The notes beneath the pieces were generated by a model. That model searched no databases. It was given only the letters and a program-made list of their open reading frames with translations, and was not told the DNA's origin. From contig NZ_CADDWI010000008.1 in assembly GCF_902809845.1 (NCBI RefSeq), positions 434,001 to 498,000 of the forward strand: a stretch of DNA of 64,000 nucleotides. Direction: 5' to 3'. Origin of the DNA: Chelativorans sp. Marseille-P2723 (GTDB taxonomy: Bacteria > Pseudomonadota > Alphaproteobacteria > Rhizobiales > Rhizobiaceae). Below are positions 1,922 through 64,000 of this stretch, one piece after another. Position 1 is the first letter of the stretch. Each line of letters begins with the position of its first letter. The translations under genes and the position numbers were made by a program.

Positions 1922-2876
1922 TTTCCTGACGCGTCTTGCCACGAACCAGCTTGCTGGCGTGATCGTGGCCTTTCTCATCATATTTGCTATTTCCGCATTT
2001 CTTTCTCCCTATTTCCTTTCCAGTTACAACATGTCGGTTGTGGCCCGTTCACTCGCCTTTGTCGGACTGGTGACAATCGGGCAATCGATGCTTCTGATTC
2101 TAGGAGAACTCGACCTTTCGTTGGGTGTCATCGGTGGCCTTTGCGGGGTAATTTCGGGCATCCTGATGGTCAATTACGGGATCAACCCGGCAGTAGCCAT
2201 GGGGCTGGCCCTTGTAATGGGGGCAGCGCTCGGCTTCATCAACGGCGCACTGGTTACCACTCTAAGCCTCCATTCTCTGGTCCTGACTATCGGCACGGCT
2301 GGGATTTACGGGGGCGTGACCCTGGTGCTCACCAGGGGCGTGGCTATCACCAACATTCCCACGGAAATCCAGTTTCTTGGGCGCGGCAGCCTTTTCGGCA
2401 TACCCGTACCCTTTCTGATCATGCTTGCGGCGCTTGCGATCGCCACCTTCATTACGTTCAAGACGCGCTTCGGACGCTATATGTACGCAGTAGGCAACAA
2501 CACGGCTGCCGCAAAAATGCTTGGCATCAAGGTCGATCGCGTCCGCGTCGCTATATTCACATTGGCAGGTTTTCTGTCGGCGCTTGCCGGAATCCTGATG
2601 GTGGCGCGATTGGGGACAGCTCAGCCGTCAATCGGTGACACCTGGGTGCTTCCGCCAATCGCGGCCGCGGTCATTGGCGGGGTTGCGACAACAGGTGGGA
2701 TCGGCACGCCGCTCGGCGCCATATTCGGTGCGGCCATCATCGCAACTATCGAGAACATTATCGTTCTCTTTGGCGTATCTCCTTACTGGCAGGGCCTTGT
2801 CAGCGGAACAATCGTGGTTCTTGCAATTTCCTTCGACTCGATCTCACGCCGCTACATCCGGCGGGAAGACCGATGA
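1911..2876 (+). CDS. Sugar ABC transporter permease (RbsC-like)
   Basis: This 321-residue hydrophobic protein belongs to the BPD_transp_2 permease family that forms the inner-membrane channel of ribose-type (CUT2) importers. About eight to ten membrane segments can be seen, and the family segment EGELDLS-like (GELDLSLGVIGG) lies near residue 70. Start ATG 1911 is preceded by a GGAG-containing ribosome site within the end of the ATPase gene. The next gene begins 28 bp after the stop with its own strong ribosome site, so catabolic genes follow transport genes in one operon. No membrane segment appears to be missing. Confidence 0.92.
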   Translation: MQPNFLTRLATNQLAGVIVAFLIIFAISAFLSPYFLSSYNMSVVARSLAFVGLVTIGQSMLLILGELDLSLGVIGGLCGVISGILMVNYGINPAVAMGLALVMGAALGFINGALVTTLSLHSLVLTIGTAGIYGGVTLVLTRGVAITNIPTEIQFLGRGSLFGIPVPFLIMLAALAIATFITFKTRFGRYMYAVGNNTAAAKMLGIKVDRVRVAIFTLAGFLSALAGILMVARLGTAQPSIGDTWVLPPIAAAVIGGVATTGGIGTPLGAIFGAAIIATIENIIVLFGVSPYWQGLVSGTIVVLAISFDSISRRYIRREDR

Positions 2877-2904
2877 CATCGAAGTCTCATCACAGGAGGT
2901 TCAC

Positions 2905-3789
2905 ATGAAACTTGGCGTAAACCTTTGTTTCGCGGTCAAGCGGTGGTTGGGCGGCGGCCGTCTTGCAAGCCTGGTGAAGGAGGACCTCGGTCTTGATTAC
3001 GCCCAGTTCAGTTGGGATCTGGTGGATCCATGGTGGCCGGCTGCGGAGCGCGACCGCATCGCTGCTGACTATGCGCGTGGCTTCAAGGCAGCGGGCGTGA
3101 CAATCGAGAGCAGCTTTGGCGGCCTTGCTTCCTACACCTATAATCACTTTCTGGCGCCGACGCCGGAACTGCGCGCTCTTGGCAAGGAGCATCTCAAGCG
3201 CGCCATCGACATGACCGCCGCGATGGAGGTGCCTGCCGCCGGCATGCCCTTTGGCTCCTACTCTGCCGATGACGCACTCGATCCCGCCCGCCGCGAAGAA
3301 ATCTACAAGCAAGCGTTGGAGACGTTCGTCGATCTTGCCCGCCATGCCAAGCAGAGCGGTCTTTCCATGCTGATGGTCGAGCCGGTTCCCCTGGCAACCG
3401 AGTTTCCGTCTTCGGCGGCCGATTCACTGCGCTTGATGAAGGATCTTGACGGCGCCACCGAGGTTCCCGTCCGCCTGCTCGTGGACTGGGGCCATGCGCT
3501 GTTCAAGCCCCTCTTCAAGGAAGAGGCCGATATGGACCACTGGATGCGCGTCTGTGGGGAATACATCGCCGCCTTTCACATCCAGCAGACGGATGGCATG
3601 CTGGACCGGCACTGGAACTTCACCCGCGACGGCATTGTCACGCTCGACGGGCTGGCTGATTTCTGGAAGCGGCATCACTTGGCGGATCAAACCTATCTTC
3701 TTGAAGTCATTTATCCGTTCGAGGAGACGGATGAGTTTGTTCTTGAAGACATGAAGAAGAGCGTCCAGCTTCTCAAACAGGCAAGCTGA
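2905..3789 (+). CDS. Sugar-phosphate isomerase/epimerase, xylose-isomerase-like TIM barrel
   Basis: The 294-residue protein starts at ATG 2905 behind a textbook AGGAGGT. It has the features of the AP_endonuc_2/xylose isomerase-like TIM barrel: VEPVPLATEF with a metal-ligand Glu, LLVDWGHALF with Asp and His ligands, AAFHIQQTDG, and a late EVIYPFEE Glu. These enzymes isomerise or epimerise small keto sugars or their phosphates using a divalent metal. The neighbours are a sugar importer upstream and a DhaK/DhaL-type kinase downstream. With that context a tetrulose-phosphate (erythrulose-phosphate) epimerase of the EryC/LerI kind is an attractive inference, but the substrate is not proven by the sequence. 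Confidence 0.8.
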   Translation: MKLGVNLCFAVKRWLGGGRLASLVKEDLGLDYAQFSWDLVDPWWPAAERDRIAADYARGFKAAGVTIESSFGGLASYTYNHFLAPTPELRALGKEHLKRAIDMTAAMEVPAAGMPFGSYSADDALDPARREEIYKQALETFVDLARHAKQSGLSMLMVEPVPLATEFPSSAADSLRLMKDLDGATEVPVRLLVDWGHALFKPLFKEEADMDHWMRVCGEYIAAFHIQQTDGMLDRHWNFTRDGIVTLDGLADFWKRHHLADQTYLLEVIYPFEETDEFVLEDMKKSVQLLKQAS

Positions 3790-3856
3790 GCCAGGTTCCA
3801 AGTCTGTTTCCAGCGCCGGCGAGACCGGCTCCTCCGTAAAGCCGCAGGACGATCCC

Positions 3857-5659
3857 GTGACCAAGACTAAGAAGCTTATCAACAATCCCGACAGCATCAT
3901 TTTCGAGATGGTGGAAGGTTTTCTTGGCGCGCACCCGCACCTTGTGACGCGCCATGGTCAGACCGGGCGCGCGCTGGTTGCGGTGGATGGCCCCCGCGAG
4001 GGGAAGGTGGGGATTGTTATCGGCGGAGGTTCGGGCCATGAGCCAGCCTTCCTTGGCTATGTTGGACGAGGGCTGGCCGACGCTGTCGCCGTCGGCAATG
4101 TCTTTGCGTCTCCTTCGCCGGAGCCAATTCTTGAGGCCACTCGGGCTGCGGATGGCGGTGCGGGCGTCCTTTACCTTTACGGGAACTATTCGGGCGATGT
4201 CATGAATTTCGACATGGCCGCGGAGGAGGCCGCAGCGGAGGGTATTGCGGTACGTACCGTCGTGGTCACGGATGACGTTGCCTCCGCGCCAACCGAACGG
4301 GCTCATGAACGCCGTGGCATTGCGGGCGACTTCTTCGTCTTCAAGATAGCCGGTGCTGCAGCCGACCGAATGGCGAGCCTGGAGGAAGTCGTTGCGGTAG
4401 CCGAAAAGGCGAACCGCTCGACCTTTACAATGGGGGTAGCGCTGGGATCCTGCTCGCTGCCGCAAACCTTGAAGCCGAACTTCTCCATCGGCGAGGACGA
4501 GATGGAAATCGGCATGGGCATTCATGGCGAGCCGGGTATTGGCCGTGAGCCGCTGGAAAGCGCTGATAGCGTAACGGACAAACTGCTCGACCGCATTTTT
4601 GCCGAACTTACCCTTTCCCCGGGCGACGAGGTTGCCGTTCTGGTCAATGGGCTTGGCTCTACCTCCCTGATGGAGCTCTACCTGCTGCACAGGCGTACCA
4701 AGCAAAGGCTGGACGAGAAGAAGGTGCAGATCTATCACTCCTTCGTAGGCGAATATGTCACGTCGTTGGAGATGGCGGGCGCGTCGATCACGCTTCTCAA
4801 GCTTGACGAAGAACTGAAAACACTGCTCGACCATCCCTGTCACACGGCGGCCCTTCAGGTGGGTTCCGTGACCAGTGGGCAGCGCGTCAGCCGATCCTCC
4901 GGGCCAGAACACCGGGCATCTTCAACCCATCCCGGGCGGCGTTCCGAAAGTGCCGGTGAAGGCGCTGCGCAGGGCGAACGTCCGGGCGGCGAGGTGACGC
5001 CGCAGATTTTCCGGGCCATGTTTCGCAATGTTGCAGCAGCAATCCTTGCCAGGAAGGACTGGCTCAGCGAACTCGACGGCGTGATCGGTGATGGCGACCA
5101 TGGCGTCACCATGGCGCTTGGCTGGGCAGCGGTTGACCGTGCGCTGGATGAAGTCACCGCCGAAGAGGATATCGAGGCGGTCTGCAAGCGCATGGCGAAG
5201 GCATTTCTGGACGCGGTGGGAGCCTCGTCCGGGCCATTATATGCGACGGCCTTTCTGCGGGCCGGAGCCAGCGCCAGCGGTCGTATCGGGCTCGATGCCG
5301 CCGCCCTGGTGGCCTTCCTCGAAGCGGCGGCGGCAGGCATCCGCGAGCGCGGCAAGGCGGAGCCGGGCGACAAGACCATGGTAGATGCATGGGTGCCAGC
5401 AGCAGAAGCGGCTTCACGTGCGTTGAGGGAAGGGGGCTCTGCGCTCGCCTGCCTGAAAGCCGCCGCCAGGGGAGCCGAAGAAGGCATGAACGCTACAGCG
5501 AAGATCGCAGCACGCAAAGGACGCTCCAGCAAACTGGGCGAGCGCTCGCTGGGCCATATAGATCCGGGTGCGGCATCGACTTTCGTCATGCTGAGCGCCA
5601 TGGCCGAGGCGCTGGAGCAGGAATTGTCCAGCTCCTCCGGCGCAGCGTCGGGTGAGTAG
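3857..5659 (+). CDS. Dihydroxyacetone-kinase-family protein (DhaK-DhaL fusion)
   Basis: This 600-residue single-chain kinase starts at GTG 3857, 67 bp after the epimerase. The DhaK domain (about 1-330) has GGGSGHEPA and His223 in GMGIHGEPG, the histidine that binds the carbonyl of the substrate in this family. A low-complexity linker (about 335-380) leads to a DhaL domain (about 385-590) with GDGDHG at 411-416, which binds ATP-magnesium. Having both domains in one chain points to an ATP-dependent rather than a PEP:phosphotransferase-dependent kinase. Related enzymes phosphorylate dihydroxyacetone or D-/L-erythrulose; the epimerase next door favours a tetrulose. It is the last gene of the operon. 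Confidence 0.88.
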   Translation: MTKTKKLINNPDSIIFEMVEGFLGAHPHLVTRHGQTGRALVAVDGPREGKVGIVIGGGSGHEPAFLGYVGRGLADAVAVGNVFASPSPEPILEATRAADGGAGVLYLYGNYSGDVMNFDMAAEEAAAEGIAVRTVVVTDDVASAPTERAHERRGIAGDFFVFKIAGAAADRMASLEEVVAVAEKANRSTFTMGVALGSCSLPQTLKPNFSIGEDEMEIGMGIHGEPGIGREPLESADSVTDKLLDRIFAELTLSPGDEVAVLVNGLGSTSLMELYLLHRRTKQRLDEKKVQIYHSFVGEYVTSLEMAGASITLLKLDEELKTLLDHPCHTAALQVGSVTSGQRVSRSSGPEHRASSTHPGRRSESAGEGAAQGERPGGEVTPQIFRAMFRNVAAAILARKDWLSELDGVIGDGDHGVTMALGWAAVDRALDEVTAEEDIEAVCKRMAKAFLDAVGASSGPLYATAFLRAGASASGRIGLDAAALVAFLEAAAAGIRERGKAEPGDKTMVDAWVPAAEAASRALREGGSALACLKAAARGAEEGMNATAKIAARKGRSSKLGERSLGHIDPGAASTFVMLSAMAEALEQELSSSSGAASGE

Positions 5660-58684: not shown

Positions 58685-59749
58685 TTATTCCGTTCTGAGC
58701 CCCGGACGACCTCCTCCACAGTTCGGGCAGCGGCGTTGGAAGATGTCCGAGCCGTTTGCTCCGTGGCGCGTGTCGCAGTTTTGGCAACGCAGAAGATAGA
58801 CAACTTGGTTATGGTCGCTGCCCGGCAGATCGGTGCGTGCGATCACTTCTTGCTTGTTCCGGTTCACGTGACCAGGTTCGGTCGTCTTACGATTGCGATT
58901 GGGTGCTTTGTTTCGGGCCTTCGGATTCCTTGGCTTCGGAGCCCATTCCACGCCCAGAATCCATCCCTCAACTCTCGCGGTCATTGCTACGTGCTCAGGC
59001 TTGGGCGGACGGAACGCGCGAAGCAGCGTCCCGTTCCGGCCTGCCTCTTGGAGCCAACGGGCAACTGCATAGGCATCGTGCTGATCGGAGCTTCTGTCCT
59101 CCACGGGATAGTTTGCACTCCAAAGCCGCGGATAGGCTTCGAAAATAACCGAGACACCAGGCTCTGGGATCCAGCCGTCGAACGGCCAGAAGTGAAGGCT
59201 TGGCCGTGCTTCCTTGATCCGGAGCAGCCAGGGAATTCCAGCATGCGTGGATTTGGCGACTGACCCCTGAACGTCAAAATGAAACACGGATTTCGCGGAG
59301 CCCGTCGCTTCTTCGGTCAATCTGCGCCAATGCCGTTCACCCAGCCGGGCAGCGCCGTTTCCGACCACTCCGCCACGTACGAAATCGACATAAGTATGTT
59401 GCCTGTCCGTCGGCCAGTGCTCGCAGAAGTCCTCAAGGAAGCTGACCCAATCTGGCGGAATCCCGTACCGCTCGAAGTACCGCATCGGGAACGAAAAGCC
59501 GTGATCGATCCCGACGATGGTCGGTACGCTGTCATCCAGTGTCTCGATCAACCATTCCGCCAGTCCGCGCCGGGTCCAGTATTTCTTCGGGCCTGGCGGC
59601 GGTGGAACCTCTTCGGGGGTACCGTCGCCAACTGTCTGATACACACGCAATCCCTTGAGGCTGGCTTCGGCCGTCTCGGCACCGGAGTAGTCGATGCCTG
59701 TCGTGCGTCCGAAGTGATGTCGCGTGGGATGATCTGCCTGCTTGTTCAT
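58685..59749 (-). CDS. RNase H-like (DUF429-like) protein with C-terminal zinc ribbon
   Basis: The 354-residue protein has acidic residues in an RNase H-like order: Asp20 (GIDYSG), Asp82 (GIDHGFSFP), Glu204 (IFEAYP) and Asp222/Asp225 (SDQHDAYAVA). A basic linker (PKPRNPKARNKAPNRNRK, about 275-292) leads to a zinc ribbon with Cys322, Cys325, Cys341 and Cys344. It overlaps the upstream DUF3883 gene by ATGA. Such a fold with four acids suggests a metal-dependent nuclease. I do not recognise the combined architecture; a defence role is inferred from location and coupling. Confidence 0.65.
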   Translation of the reverse strand: MNKQADHPTRHHFGRTTGIDYSGAETAEASLKGLRVYQTVGDGTPEEVPPPPGPKKYWTRRGLAEWLIETLDDSVPTIVGIDHGFSFPMRYFERYGIPPDWVSFLEDFCEHWPTDRQHTYVDFVRGGVVGNGAARLGERHWRRLTEEATGSAKSVFHFDVQGSVAKSTHAGIPWLLRIKEARPSLHFWPFDGWIPEPGVSVIFEAYPRLWSANYPVEDRSSDQHDAYAVARWLQEAGRNGTLLRAFRPPKPEHVAMTARVEGWILGVEWAPKPRNPKARNKAPNRNRKTTEPGHVNRNKQEVIARTDLPGSDHNQVVYLLRCQNCDTRHGANGSDIFQRRCPNCGGGRPGLRTE

Positions 59750-60576
59750 TGGAAGCTGGCTTGGAAACTGGTTGCTGTCAGCGAGACATGGGCATCGAGC
59801 GGTGGGCGTAACTCGAAGGCCTTGGGCGAACGCGCGAAATCGTAGAGGCGGAAGAGATACCAGTCCTCACGACGGGATTCGGCAACCTCAAGCTCGTTTC
59901 GCGAAATGTGGAAGGGGGTGCGTTCCCAACCGTTGGTCGTCTTCACTTCGATCAGGCGCTCACGCCCGTCAGCCGTGAAGCTGGCGATGTCGTAGCCAAC
60001 CCCGTCACCATCTTCCTGCGATACCCAGCGGACTCGACGGGCAAGGTCGTCGCGACCGTACTGGCGAAGCTGGCTGCACTCGTGGTGAAAGACCCTTTCC
60101 TCGCCTGCACGGCCCAAGGTCCGATTTCGTTCGTCGCGTCCGGCAACATCGAAACGGCGGGCGACGGTTTGCATCTGGACAAGTTCATCGGGCGGAGGAG
60201 TGTTCTTCAGCGTTGGAGCAATGCCGATGAAAAGTGGCGGAGCCTCTGCCAGTCCCGGTTTTTGCCTATTGTGTAGGGCAGCCTCCCACTCAGGATGCCG
60301 AGCCAGCCAGCGTGAGATCGCTTCGGCCAAAGACATCTGAAAGTTAAACCGGGGTTGGTAGCCTTTGACCATTGGCAGCCCGAACCCCTTGGCGGCGGCA
60401 GATATGTTGCAGTGCTTGAACTCGATCGAGCCTCGGCTGCGTCCGATCTGTTCCTGCAACAATCGATTCTGGGCAGCCTTGTTGAATGGACGGCCAGCGA
60501 GCTCATCGCTGAGCATCGCGAAATAAGCCGCGACAACTGCGTCATTCTCCGTATCTGACCAATCCCCCGAAACCAT
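59746..60576 (-). CDS. DUF3883-domain protein
   Basis: The 276-residue protein has an N-terminal region typical of genes with an HTH-like start (DWSDTENDAVVAAYFAML, then RSRGSIEFKHCNISAAAKGFG). Its C-terminal DUF3883 domain shows GRAGEERVFHHE, GYDIASF and LIEVKTTNG, a possible PD-(D/E)xK-type E-x-K site, ending SRREDWYLFRLYDFA. DUF3883 domains occur in restriction-like and defence proteins. The stop overlaps the next start (ATGA). I treat the two proteins as one operon. No strong ribosome site precedes ATG 60576. Confidence 0.75.
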   Translation of the reverse strand: MVSGDWSDTENDAVVAAYFAMLSDELAGRPFNKAAQNRLLQEQIGRSRGSIEFKHCNISAAAKGFGLPMVKGYQPRFNFQMSLAEAISRWLARHPEWEAALHNRQKPGLAEAPPLFIGIAPTLKNTPPPDELVQMQTVARRFDVAGRDERNRTLGRAGEERVFHHECSQLRQYGRDDLARRVRWVSQEDGDGVGYDIASFTADGRERLIEVKTTNGWERTPFHISRNELEVAESRREDWYLFRLYDFARSPKAFELRPPLDAHVSLTATSFQASFQ

Positions 60577-61296: not shown

Positions 61297-62382
61297 TCAG
61301 ACTACACGCAAGTCGGAAACTTCCACACCGTGCTGCACCACGTTCGCAGCGATAGTGCGCCCTCTTTCGAGAAGCCAGTCAAAGCCGACTATCCGCAGGT
61401 GATTGCCGCTCTGGTTCGCGTCATGGAGAACCTGCAACTGATTGGAATTCAGATCGCGTTCAAGGCCGATGACGACTAGGCAGTCCGGCTCCTGAAAGTC
61501 CGGCATATGTAGCCTGATGTCGGGATACTTCCGGACCAGGTTACGTCGATAGTCTGCTACTTGCTGTTCGGCGTGAGTCACGCTCGCGGAGATTTGTCCT
61601 CCAGCGGTAACCAGTGTTTTGCTGGGACATTCGATCTCCACCACCATGTACGTACCGTCCGCCCTTTTTACGATGAAGTCGGGCTCCCTGTAACCAAACA
61701 GGTTCGGCTGCGGCCAAACCTCATGCGCGAGCGGGTCGAGGAGTTGCGGGTGACGAGTCAAGAACGTTTGGAACGCGGGTTCATCGGATGGGCGAGTTTT
61801 GATCAACTCGTCAAATTCATCAAGAACCGGCGTGCTCATGGCCATCCACCGCCTAGACACTGCGGTAACCAATTGCTTGGCGGCTTTCGCCTGCGAAAAC
61901 GAAAAGCCCATGAGCGTGGTGCCGACATGTAAGGCGACATCGTCGTCGTCGAACGAAAGGATGAGATCAACAAGCATTGTATTCGCCAATTTGCGAACGG
62001 CCGGAGCATTTGCCGCGGCGTCTACCTTCTCGTCGACAATCGGATCGATCCGGAAGAGGCGGTTTGACACATCGCCGGAAGCGGCCATTGCCAGAAACTG
62101 CATTGCCAATCCCGAGTTCTTTCCGGTAGGTGTTCGCTTCGCAGCCTCCGTCAAAGCGAGCAACCCATTCTCTCTCCATGCTAGCAAAGCAGCGGCAGCC
62201 GGGCCCTTGACCTCCATGTTGAAGGTAATGCCATCGTACATGTCCTCGTAGAGACGGCACACGGACGTCAACGCTTCCAACCCTCCGTCCAGGACACACT
62301 CCCTCAGGAGCGTGGCGAGCCCATCGCGGCTCAATGGGCCGGAGATGAATTCTTCCGCCCTTTGCCTGAAGTTACTCGACAT
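61297..62382 (-). CDS. DUF4263 (Shedu-type) protein
   Basis: The 361-residue protein has a helical N-terminal part (1-195) and a C-terminal DUF4263 domain: FLTRHPQLLDP, EPDFIVKRADG (Asp235) and VVEIECPSK (Glu249), followed by THAEQQVADYRRNL. Shedu proteins are single-gene anti-phage nucleases. Here the usual E-x-K lysine is replaced (EIECP), a variation I also associate with some DUF4263 subfamilies, so activity is uncertain. I use ATG 62382 with AAGGTGA upstream rather than the longer frame from 62439. Confidence 0.75.
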   Translation of the reverse strand: MSSNFRQRAEEFISGPLSRDGLATLLRECVLDGGLEALTSVCRLYEDMYDGITFNMEVKGPAAAALLAWRENGLLALTEAAKRTPTGKNSGLAMQFLAMAASGDVSNRLFRIDPIVDEKVDAAANAPAVRKLANTMLVDLILSFDDDDVALHVGTTLMGFSFSQAKAAKQLVTAVSRRWMAMSTPVLDEFDELIKTRPSDEPAFQTFLTRHPQLLDPLAHEVWPQPNLFGYREPDFIVKRADGTYMVVEIECPSKTLVTAGGQISASVTHAEQQVADYRRNLVRKYPDIRLHMPDFQEPDCLVVIGLERDLNSNQLQVLHDANQSGNHLRIVGFDWLLERGRTIAANVVQHGVEVSDLRVV

Positions 62383-62851
62383 CGCTATCACCTTAAAGTG
62401 AGGCTTATAACCGACGGGGCCTACCGCCACGCCAGGCACTGGAAGTAGAACATTACGAGCAATTGTCTGGTACCGCGTGGTTTGTTACGCCCGACAAGTC
62501 GCGGACAGATACATATAGATATTTCTTTGTCCACAACGCGCCCTCAGGTCAGCGCGCTCGGGCAACTCGGAAGCGGACGTTTCTTCGGAGAGGACCCAAT
62601 ACCAGAACAGGCGGAAATCCGACTTTGATTACTATCTTCAGTTGATAACCTTCGCCTCCTGGAAGCGGATACTCAGTGCGAAAATAGGTGCCCCGCGCGC
62701 CCTGCCGTAAGAGGCTTGTCCAAGCCATATCGTAGCCTGACAATCCCGACCGCTTGGCTTGTAGAGCGACTGCTGGTTGCACCGATTAATACGGAAGGCC
62801 GACGACTGAATGAGTTTTTCGAATCAAACCTATCGGCTAAATTGCTGAGTT
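62383..62851. other. 469-bp divergent region without a gene
   Basis: It separates the minus-strand DUF4263 gene from the plus-strand thymidylate-synthase-like gene and should contain both promoters. Two short frames (62463-62645 and 62549-62782) lack ribosome sites and family-like segments. Nothing else seen. Confidence 0.4.
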
Positions 62852-63883
62852 ATGATGATAGAAGGGCGGTACTTGGATGAAATAATGCGAAAGCTCTACA
62901 GCGAGCTTTCGAAGAGCACTGACACGTTCGAAGCGAGCAAAGGAAAAGGACAAGATCTTCTAGGGCAAAAGATTTTGCTTAAAGACCCTCGCGCCCGAAT
63001 CAGCGCCACCGCAACACGCGGAAGACTCATTTCAGCGCTGGCGGAATTTTGCTGGTATATGGCTGGGAGTGCCGACCTAGATTTCATTCGCTTCTATTTG
63101 CCCGATTATCCTCCCGAAGGAGCCAAAGGGTCGCTTGAAGAAGCCTATGGACCTCGCCTTATTGGCACAGGTGAATTTGGCCGCTCATTCGACCAGATTA
63201 ACAGAGTGATCGACCGGCTACGGCGAAAATCTGACACGCGCCGCGCGGTGATTTCCATTCTTGAGCCAAGCGATCTTGAACCGGGGAAAGAGGAAGCCCC
63301 CTGCACCATAGCCCTGCAATTTATTCGCAGACGTGAACGCTTGCATCTCGTTGCGATGATGCGATCCAATGACGCCTATCTGGGCTTTCCCCATGACGTG
63401 TTCTGTTTCACGATGATCCAAGAGCTTGTTGCCCGTTCCCTCGGTATCCAGGTCGGCGAATATCATCATTTCGCGACGAGTTTGCATCTCTATGAGCGTG
63501 ACCAGGACAAGGTTTCCGCCTATCTCGATGAAGGATTCCAAAGTCCTACATTCGCGATGCCAAAAATGCCTTCCGGCTGTCAGCTCGCCAACCTTCAGGC
63601 TTTTCTCGATATCGAACAGTCGATCAGAAGCGGCAAGACCACAGCGGCGGCGCAGATAAAGCTGCCAGAATACTGGCGTGATTTGGCACTTGTACTCCTT
63701 CGCCTCGCGGATTCAAGATTTAGAAGGGGGCAGAAGACGCTTGAGGATAACTTCTCGAATATAAATAATAATTTTTACAGAAACTTCTTTATTAAGCGTC
63801 CAAAAAAGTTGCCGAAAGCGCCAGCACCCGTAATGATTCAAGACAAACTCGATTTAGGTGATGATGATGGCGTTAAGAATTAA
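62852..63883 (+). CDS. Divergent thymidylate-synthase-family protein
   Basis: The 343-residue protein keeps the thymidylate synthase core: DTRRAV (128-133), catalytic Cys151 in PCTIALQF, RSNDAYLGFP (171-180) and SLHLYERD (about 210-217). Two key positions differ. The His after Cys (PCH in ThyA) is Thr152. The Asn that reads uracil (LPFN in E. coli, Asn177) is Asp182 in GFPHDVF. Asp at this site is known to favour cytosine nucleotides, as in phage dCMP hydroxymethylase. The C-terminus lacks the usual ThyA end. Its last 23 bp overlap the next gene. A modified-nucleotide role is inferred. Confidence 0.8.
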   Translation: MMIEGRYLDEIMRKLYSELSKSTDTFEASKGKGQDLLGQKILLKDPRARISATATRGRLISALAEFCWYMAGSADLDFIRFYLPDYPPEGAKGSLEEAYGPRLIGTGEFGRSFDQINRVIDRLRRKSDTRRAVISILEPSDLEPGKEEAPCTIALQFIRRRERLHLVAMMRSNDAYLGFPHDVFCFTMIQELVARSLGIQVGEYHHFATSLHLYERDQDKVSAYLDEGFQSPTFAMPKMPSGCQLANLQAFLDIEQSIRSGKTTAAAQIKLPEYWRDLALVLLRLADSRFRRGQKTLEDNFSNINNNFYRNFFIKRPKKLPKAPAPVMIQDKLDLGDDDGVKN

Positions 63884-64000
63884 GGACCAACAAAAGTCCG
63901 ACGAAATTTCCGATTTGCTAGATAATTTTCCCAATGCCCAATTCCCGTTCGTGGGTCTGAATAGCCCTGAGCGCAAATCGGTTTTGGTTGCGCAACTTGT
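63861..64000 (+). CDS. Start of a gene overlapping the thymidylate-synthase-like gene (3' cut)
   Basis: The frame opens with ATGATGATG at 63861 and runs to the window end; 46 residues are visible, MMMALRIKDQQKSDEISDLL then NFPNAQFPFVGLNSPERK. TTAGGTG just upstream gives a modest ribosome site. It overlaps the preceding gene by 23 bp, so the two are translationally coupled and probably act together. The family cannot be named from so short a stretch. Confidence 0.6.
   Translation, partial: MMMALRIKDQQKSDEISDLLDNFPNAQFPFVGLNSPERKSVLVAQL

Follow-up and report, generated by a model that had tools for sequence, protein, structure and literature searches.

A thymidylate synthase homologue with a cytosine-type active site lies in a conserved four-gene cassette with a probable role in defence

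Introduction

The closest described relatives of the thymidylate synthase (TS) homologue considered here are the hydroxymethylase gp42 of the lytic phage T4 and MilA, the CMP 5-hydroxymethylase of mildiomycin biosynthesis (5b6d/5jnh). Statements attributed to published work refer to the parts of each source that were available. In T4 gp42, Asp179 is reported to select cytosine and Asp145, at times replaced by Glu, to activate water, with Ser94 and Tyr96 completing the published hydroxymethylase signature (PMC6400193). The double substitution A176S/K133R is reported to switch MilA from CMP to dCMP (PMC5175136), and positions 177 and 147 are described as those that best separate the TSs of modified contigs from those of unmodified contigs (PMC8670742).

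A second set of relatives is found in the thymidine hypermodification pathways of phages phi-W14 and M6, which combine a hydroxymethylase, a 5-hmdU DNA kinase and an aGPT-PPlase/amino acid:DNA transferase (AADT). To our knowledge, the formation of bases hypermodified with amino acids or amines from hydroxymethyl-pyrimidines is a chemistry familiar only from phages. A 2013 paper is said to have founded the aGPT-PPlase families and to have predicted bacterial base-modification systems. In phi-W14, hydroxymethyl-dUMP is reportedly made, built into DNA and pyrophosphorylated there, after which the pyrophosphate is replaced by putrescine (PMC5977210).

The third point of comparison is the anti-phage system PD-lambda-2, composed of a HigB-like protein A, an Xre-peptidase B and a component C, the last of which we take to be related to the P4 antitoxin. 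Its B protein is described as toxic and its A protein as rescuing (PMC9519451). The aGPT-Pplase domain is among the defence predictions of DefensePredictor (2026), given as unvalidated in the available text, and a system holding a thymidylate synthase is validated there (PMC13092281); these two systems were set beside the present cassette by text only, and either could be it. In the literature searched, no description was found of a fixed union of a hydroxymethylase, an AADT and a HigB/M78 pair. Taken singly, hydroxymethylase, AADT family and HigB/M78 pair are already known, and any novelty lies in their fixed union; given the known parts and the DefensePredictor predictions, we do not call the cassette categorically new.

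Results and discussion

Active site of the thymidylate synthase homologue

The window is the whole stretch of DNA analysed, 64,000 nucleotides long (G000:C8:434001-498000). Gene 1 lies near its right-hand end.

62852-63883, + strand: gene 1, TS homologue, predicted dCMP hydroxymethylase, 343 aa (PF00303, residue comparison)

The reading frame is open throughout and matches PF00303 at 2.4e-25 across residues 59-237 (Pfam), and its nearest PDB sequence is MilA (5b6d, 5.8e-39). A canonical ThyA is encoded separately on the same contig, ~578 kb from gene 1 (2.2e-123). In a MAFFT alignment with T4 gp42, the genome's own ThyA and relatives, Cys151 of gene 1 falls on the catalytic Cys, Thr152 on the His147 site, which is likewise Thr in T4 gp42, Asp182 on the site of Asn177 and T4 Asp179, and Glu148 on the T4 Asp145 site, three residues before the Cys. 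The own-genome ThyA has Asn, His and Leu at the Asn177, His147 and Cys-minus-3 sites, where gene 1 has Asp, Thr and Glu. T4 gp42 thus shares with gene 1 the Asp at the Asn177 site, the Thr after the Cys, the acid three residues before it, the Arg/Ser deoxy determinants and an 'SLHxY' segment. MilA shares the Cys-Thr pair and the Asp (MilA Asp186) and differs in its ribo-type Lys133/Ala176 (PMC5175136, available text), where gene 1 carries Arg130 and Ser172, the pair associated with dCMP. CMP is therefore not the expected substrate, and on the strength of these two residues it was rejected in favour of dCMP.

The same residues recur across the family, which comprises 54 non-redundant members including gene 1 itself, after L052, L058 and L065 were dropped as identical. 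Cys, Thr and Asp at the three key sites are each present in 54/54, so the substitutions in gene 1 are not due to chance. The MilA Ala176 site is Ser in all 54, the MilA Lys133 site is Arg in 46 and Lys in eight, and the T4 Asp145 site is acidic in 51 (Glu 30, Asp 21), with Ala in two and Asn in one. The T4 Tyr96 site is Tyr in every member, whereas Ser at the T4 Ser94 site is found in 0/54 (Gly 47, Glu 6, Asp 1), which sets the bacterial family apart from T4 gp42. Half of the Ser94-x-Tyr96 signature is thus present, leaving a methylase product conceivable, and this mismatch at Ser94 is the main caution on the prediction.

The initial annotation had proposed, from the letters of gene 1, a TS homologue that keeps its catalytic Cys151, has Thr in place of the following His, and carries Asp at the pyrimidine-selecting position. 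Both the alignment and the 54/54 counts bear this out, and the accompanying claim that an Asn-to-Asp change at this site shifts preference towards cytosine substrates agrees with the three published accounts, as far as their available text goes (PMC6400193, PMC5175136, PMC8670742). Gene 1 is probably a dCMP hydroxymethylase, with 5-hydroxymethyl-dCMP as its predicted product. An ordinary or duplicate ThyA was also considered as its identity, and is ruled out by the separate canonical ThyA together with the non-canonical active site. If the prediction is right, the label 'thymidylate synthase' is probably wrong for some of the genes that carry it in bacteria.

An amino acid:DNA transferase homologue overlaps gene 1

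Gene 2 begins inside gene 1 and runs out of the window into the neighbouring stretch L003 (G000:C8:496001-512000), in which a window coordinate equals the L003 coordinate plus 62000.

63858-64000, continuing to L003:2799, + strand: gene 2, aGPT-PPlase clade 3/amino acid:DNA transferase homologue, 313 aa
L003:1858-2799, + strand: full span of gene 2 (PF18746, PF18724)

The overlap with gene 1 is 26 bp if GTG 63858 is the start and 23 bp from ATG 63861; the 23 bp reported initially fits the latter start. The same annotation called the downstream gene unknown, a label that no longer applies once the contig is read beyond the window. The protein matches aGPT-Pplase3 (PF18746) at 2.9e-80, with 270.1 bits against a cut-off of 25, and ADDT (amino acid:DNA transferase; PF18724) at 1.3e-59, with 202.2 bits against a cut-off of 26.2. 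PF18724 also matches the phage M6 protein (2.3e-48). The two are distant from each other, having 12 of 34 near-invariant positions in common. The predicted model of gene 2 is all-helical, with a mean pLDDT of 89; a PDB profile search for relatives returned none, and a search of INPHARED gave no match at 1e-5 among 50,697 phage records.

The cassette thus shares with the phi-W14/M6 pathway the first and last of its three enzyme families, and departs from it in having a cytosine selector, a bacterial host and a toxin–antitoxin (TA)-like protease pair, and in giving no kinase match. The 5-hmdU DNA kinase model (PF18723) was found in 0/18 cassette genomes searched, phage M6 serving as the positive control (1.4e-57), which leaves no candidate for the activation on which AADT depends in phages. 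This step might be taken over by a host kinase, or gene 2 might work with a different leaving group or on the nucleotide itself; the activation step is the weakest link of the proposed chemistry. In T4, gp42 is paired with a glucosyltransferase, whereas gene 1 is paired with AADT, with no dNMP kinase among the four genes of the cassette.

The cassette is rare across the genomes searched. PF18746 occurs in 4/398 genomes of the own phylum, three of them with the cassette (the own genome included) and the fourth, G074, with a relative standing alone. A second phylum has it in 5/296 genomes, two with the cassette and three with weak matches and no cassette. The AADT alignment model (A2), scoring at most six candidates per genome, finds 1/385 genomes of the class, namely the own genome. 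Four AADT relatives therefore lie outside the cassette, one strong (L073) and three weak (L044-L046). The strong one, at L073:1651-2559 in G074, is related to aGPT-PPlase clade 3, and the 9 kb of sequence read there contain no partner gene of the cassette.

A protease and a HigB-like protein on the opposite strand

Two further genes complete the cassette, both wholly outside the window.

L003:2796-3887, − strand: gene 3, HTH(HigA-like)-M78 protease, 363 aa (M78 PF06114 1.1e-9, HTH_3 1.5e-5)
L003:3874-4206, − strand: gene 4, HigB-like protein, 110 aa, upstream of gene 3

Gene 3 stands tail-to-tail with gene 2, their ends overlapping by 4 bp. It matches the PADLOC model PD-Lambda-2_B at 6.3e-29, its HTH part resembles HigA (7.2e-10), and the same model (PDLC03982) matches 19/19 aligned cassette HTH-M78 proteins. 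The HExxH motif, His275 and Glu293 are each kept in 51/51 cassette proteins, L007, L005 and L053 being absent from these counts and from the tree described below.

The 110-aa ORF has no Pfam match, 0/17 cassette small proteins match any PADLOC model, and a PDB profile search found no relative. The AlphaFold2 model of the L009 protein (mean pLDDT 92) has the order E-H-H-H-E-E-E-E, which we take to be that of RelE/HigB. In hhalign comparisons the small protein reaches 97% with a protein annotated as 'killer suppression protein', which is encoded upstream of a solo HTH-M78 gene and matches HigB below threshold, and 87% with a RelE/ParE-annotated protein upstream of another, in an alignment that covers part of the length. 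The best R/K/H/Y column among cassette proteins holds 36 of 47 sequences, and two Arg and one His are each present in 5/5 solo small proteins.

The pair shares with PD-lambda-2 an Xre-M78 protein of B type, and the gene upstream of it may correspond to the HigB-like component A; it differs in a small protein without a PADLOC match and in the TS-AADT pair, which stands at the place expected for component C. Since the B protein of PD-lambda-2 is reported to be toxic and its A protein to rescue, gene 3 may be read as the effector and the HigB-like protein as its keeper.

When 62 HTH-M78 proteins are placed in a maximum-likelihood tree, for which the program warns of long branches, the 51 cassette proteins split from 11 solo relatives with support 100/99, and the tree needs one label change against 10.3 in shuffles. 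The solo set consists of 12 records opened from 34 non-cassette plasmid records, of which L097 was dropped as shorter than 300 aa. The topology looks as if the HTH-M78 pair had joined the TS/AADT enzymes once.

Four of the 12 solo genes opened lie divergently beside defence-like operons (at about 2400-4110 in each locus). That in L089 adjoins a cyclase, an E2 and a TIR gene; those in L090, L091 and L094 adjoin ThiF and multiubiquitin genes, with DUF6527 in two of the three. A small gene is annotated just upstream of the protease gene in three of these four loci. Such placement beside other defence-like operons suggests that the pair may be a general defence accessory.

Conservation and arrangement of the cassette

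Cassette loci were collected from three anchors, and the presence of the anchor gene in the loci that it retrieved is therefore given beforehand. In the search of genome contigs with the TS query, 21/21 loci have AADT next and HTH-M78 beyond, with minor exceptions: one extra gene precedes AADT in L023, AADT is in two pieces and HTH-M78 in pieces in L007, and HTH-M78 is cut by the contig end in L005. The AADT alignment query on IMG/VR gave TS upstream in 25/25 and HTH-M78 in 24/25, the contig ending in L053. The AADT protein query matched eight of 72,556 plasmid records, with HTH-M78 adjacent in 8/8 and an annotated TS upstream in all seven that were opened.

After removal of own-genome duplicates (L002, L027, L030), another duplicate (L042), the outside relatives (L028/L073, L044-L046) and solo pairs (L040, L041), the tally comprises 57 loci: TS in 57, AADT in 57, HTH-M78 in 56 and the small gene in 50. 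Of the seven loci without a called small gene, six run into the end of their contig, and in L034 the gene was missed at the threshold used. The arrangement TS>AADT><M78 holds in 56/56 loci. The 57 loci span genomes, plasmids and viral contigs and three phyla, with hosts in the Alpha- and Gammaproteobacteria, Actinomycetota and Spirochaetota; Methylobacterium, Sphingobium, Novosphingobium, Devosia and Actibacterium are among the hosts of the TS matches.

The pairwise distance matrices of the four proteins are correlated (r 0.84-0.93; 0/2000 permutations as high), and nearest neighbours agree among the four in 27 to 31 of 45 loci; the test used 45 rows, without L007, L038 and the loci in which a gene was not called. 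As shared descent alone could give such a correlation, it shows joint inheritance and not function, and the protease clade is stronger evidence.

These results bear on whether gene 1 is a moonlighting or degenerate TS captured by a mobile element, its Asp182 and its linkage having no shared function. Annotation pipelines do call the family thymidylate synthase. A canonical ThyA elsewhere in the genome, the uniform non-canonical active site and a linkage that holds from each anchor all point the other way, and we regard such a capture as very improbable.

Mobility and genomic surroundings

When the Pantoea copy was searched against complete Escherichia coli genomes at the DNA level, 4/5426 matched over 112 bases at 75%, a match length and identity at which others may be missed; one of the four matching records was opened. 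In E. coli TC24 (L099:3854-12112), found after the tally and outside the 57, the order is tRNA-Leu, integrase, thymidylate synthase and a hypothetical gene; ImmA/IrrE and a small gene come next, in the opposite orientation, followed by genes for a MazG-like protein and a type I R subunit. The matches of its four cassette proteins to the cassette models reach 6e-111, 2e-103, 5e-103 and 2e-24, and the six key sites of the TS read Arg, Asp, Cys, Thr, Ser and Asp, differing from gene 1 only by Asp for Glu148. Near-identical copies of the cassette lie on viral contigs of 13-119 kb (L057/L058, L063), and a Pantoea plasmid with the cassette (L036) also bears a 'head processing protein'. These observations suggest that the cassette is carried by phage-plasmids.

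The surroundings in the own genome include the following genes.

59746-60576, − strand: PDC-S36 candidate defence gene (1.7e-125), upstream of the cassette
61297-62439, − strand: SduA-like (DUF4263) gene, just upstream of the cassette
L003:6152-7810, − strand: C5-cytosine DNA methyltransferase, beyond the cassette
L003:8103-12902, + strand: large PDC-S37 protein, beyond the cassette

Across 13 cassettes, all 120 flank ORFs were compared with 120 control ORFs, out of 164, taken from contig 1 of each of these 13 genomes at arbitrary places, counting families rather than proteins. The flanks match 92 PADLOC families at 1e-20, with type I R-M, HerA, MADS, PD-T4-6, PDC-M66 and PDC-M68 among the matches listed (25 of 92); the controls match two, DndA and SspA, which we take to be cysteine desulfurases. 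Seventeen control stretches had been sought, of which two did not exist, and G241 and G339, with short cassette loci, were omitted. In L004 an interval of 23 bp separates an hsdR ORF from the TS ORF that follows it.

The gene had initially been placed at the end of a defence-rich island. Its richness in defence genes stands; the end does not, for the HTH-M78 gene, the C5-cytosine methyltransferase and PDC-S37 follow. The expectation that neighbours of close homologues would be related to nucleotide or defence genes is borne out by AADT at 21/21 TS-query loci and by the 13 flanks set against their controls. With the Asp182 site, these nucleotide and defence neighbours make the original suggestion, a modified nucleotide for defence or self-marking, the leading idea.

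An addiction-type element would account for part of this picture: genes 1 and 2 would modify DNA and the TA-like pair would stabilize the element, with no anti-phage role. TA pairs often stabilize mobile elements, the cassette occurs on plasmids, on viral contigs and in a tRNA-Leu island with an integrase, and none of the four own proteins has a nuclease match in Pfam at 0.1, the nuclease expected of an R-M system being absent from that search. Against this, the cassettes of 13 genomes sit among defence genes and a member of the protease family is validated in defence (PMC9519451, available text), so we consider an element of this kind improbable. The cassette itself probably has a role in defence.

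Proposed mode of action

At the sequence level, the comparisons establish the gene set, its fixed arrangement, the protease clade, the active-site signature and the defence surroundings of 13 copies. The mode of action that we favour would build on these as follows. Gene 1 would put a hydroxymethyl group from methylene-tetrahydrofolate onto dCMP to give 5-hydroxymethyl-dCMP, and gene 2, whose family in phages joins amino acids or amines to an activated hydroxymethyl-pyrimidine of the DNA, would use this group to form a hypermodified cytosine, most likely in DNA and possibly as a nucleotide. Genes 4 and 3 would act as a PD-lambda-2-like pair: the toxic effector would be the HTH-M78 metalloprotease, restrained by the HigB-like protein, in which no RNase-type residue is well conserved. 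Modification by genes 1 and 2 would mark self or keep the pair quiet, and phage infection would release the protease, whereupon the infection would be aborted.

That gene 1 belongs to a mobile four-gene anti-phage (or addiction-type) cassette working in this way seems to us evenly poised. A complete link between the modification arm and the protease arm, as described, is plausible at somewhat less than even chances. More tentative still is the wider notion of an immune system in which a cytosine hypermodified with an amino acid or amine is coupled to a metalloprotease in place of a nuclease, the state of the nucleotide pool or of the DNA, rather than a cut site, deciding on killing. If it were true, bacteria would be using base hypermodification of the phage type for defence, on cytosine, and linked to an effector protease.

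The chief rival to this self-marking or quieting role casts genes 1 and 2 as the weapon, making a toxic modified cytosine nucleotide or poisoning phage DNA as it replicates, and the HTH-M78 pair as an infection-responsive switch, as CapH/CapP is for CBASS. The CapP model does match 19/19 cassette HTH-M78 proteins at 0.01, and four of the 12 solo relatives have the regulator-like, divergent placement beside defence-like operons. dCMP is a product of DNA breakdown, so the substrate of gene 1 may rise on infection, which again counts for a weapon. A switch would sit less easily with the convergent orientation of the pair and genes 1 and 2 in 56/56 loci, where no promoter region is shared, and a search of 40 loci for an operator common to the promoters of gene 1 and the HigB-like gene found none (same-locus 16.0 against mismatched 15.6). 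In the other eight solo relatives such an operon is absent or the locus is unannotated. We therefore rate the weapon unlikely, though less so than the addiction-type element, and keep to self-marking or quieting as the favoured role.

If the pathway operates as proposed, bases or nucleotides derived from 5-hydroxymethylcytosine would be expected in cultured bacteria among the hosts, namely Methylobacterium, Sphingobium, Novosphingobium, Devosia, Actibacterium and E. coli TC24, a prediction testable by mass spectrometry.

Optional genes of the cassette

Two further genes accompany some copies. A gene of ~265 aa lies between TS and AADT in 6/57 loci, with conserved GxNPS and NHN(L/I)QSS motifs. 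Its motifs had raised the idea of a uracil-DNA glycosylase, which neither PDB profile searches nor Pfam support, no relative of the gene being found in either.

L023:8927-9715: optional TS-AADT insert gene
L038:3190-3993: optional TS-AADT insert gene
L051:4177-5004: optional TS-AADT insert gene
L052:4177-5004: optional TS-AADT insert gene, alike L051
L053:4127-4987: optional TS-AADT insert gene
L054:4129-4926: optional TS-AADT insert gene

The second optional ORF precedes the small gene in the same orientation in 14/57 loci.

L012:11444-11953, − strand: second optional ORF (also in L013, L017, L019-L021, L039, L059-L062, L064-L066)

It has no match to the gene annotated as MazG-like beside the E. 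coli cassette, and a PDB profile search gives a pyrophosphatase, weakly, at 0.025. The ORF looks MazG-like to us, and as such a candidate it could supply dCMP from dCTP.
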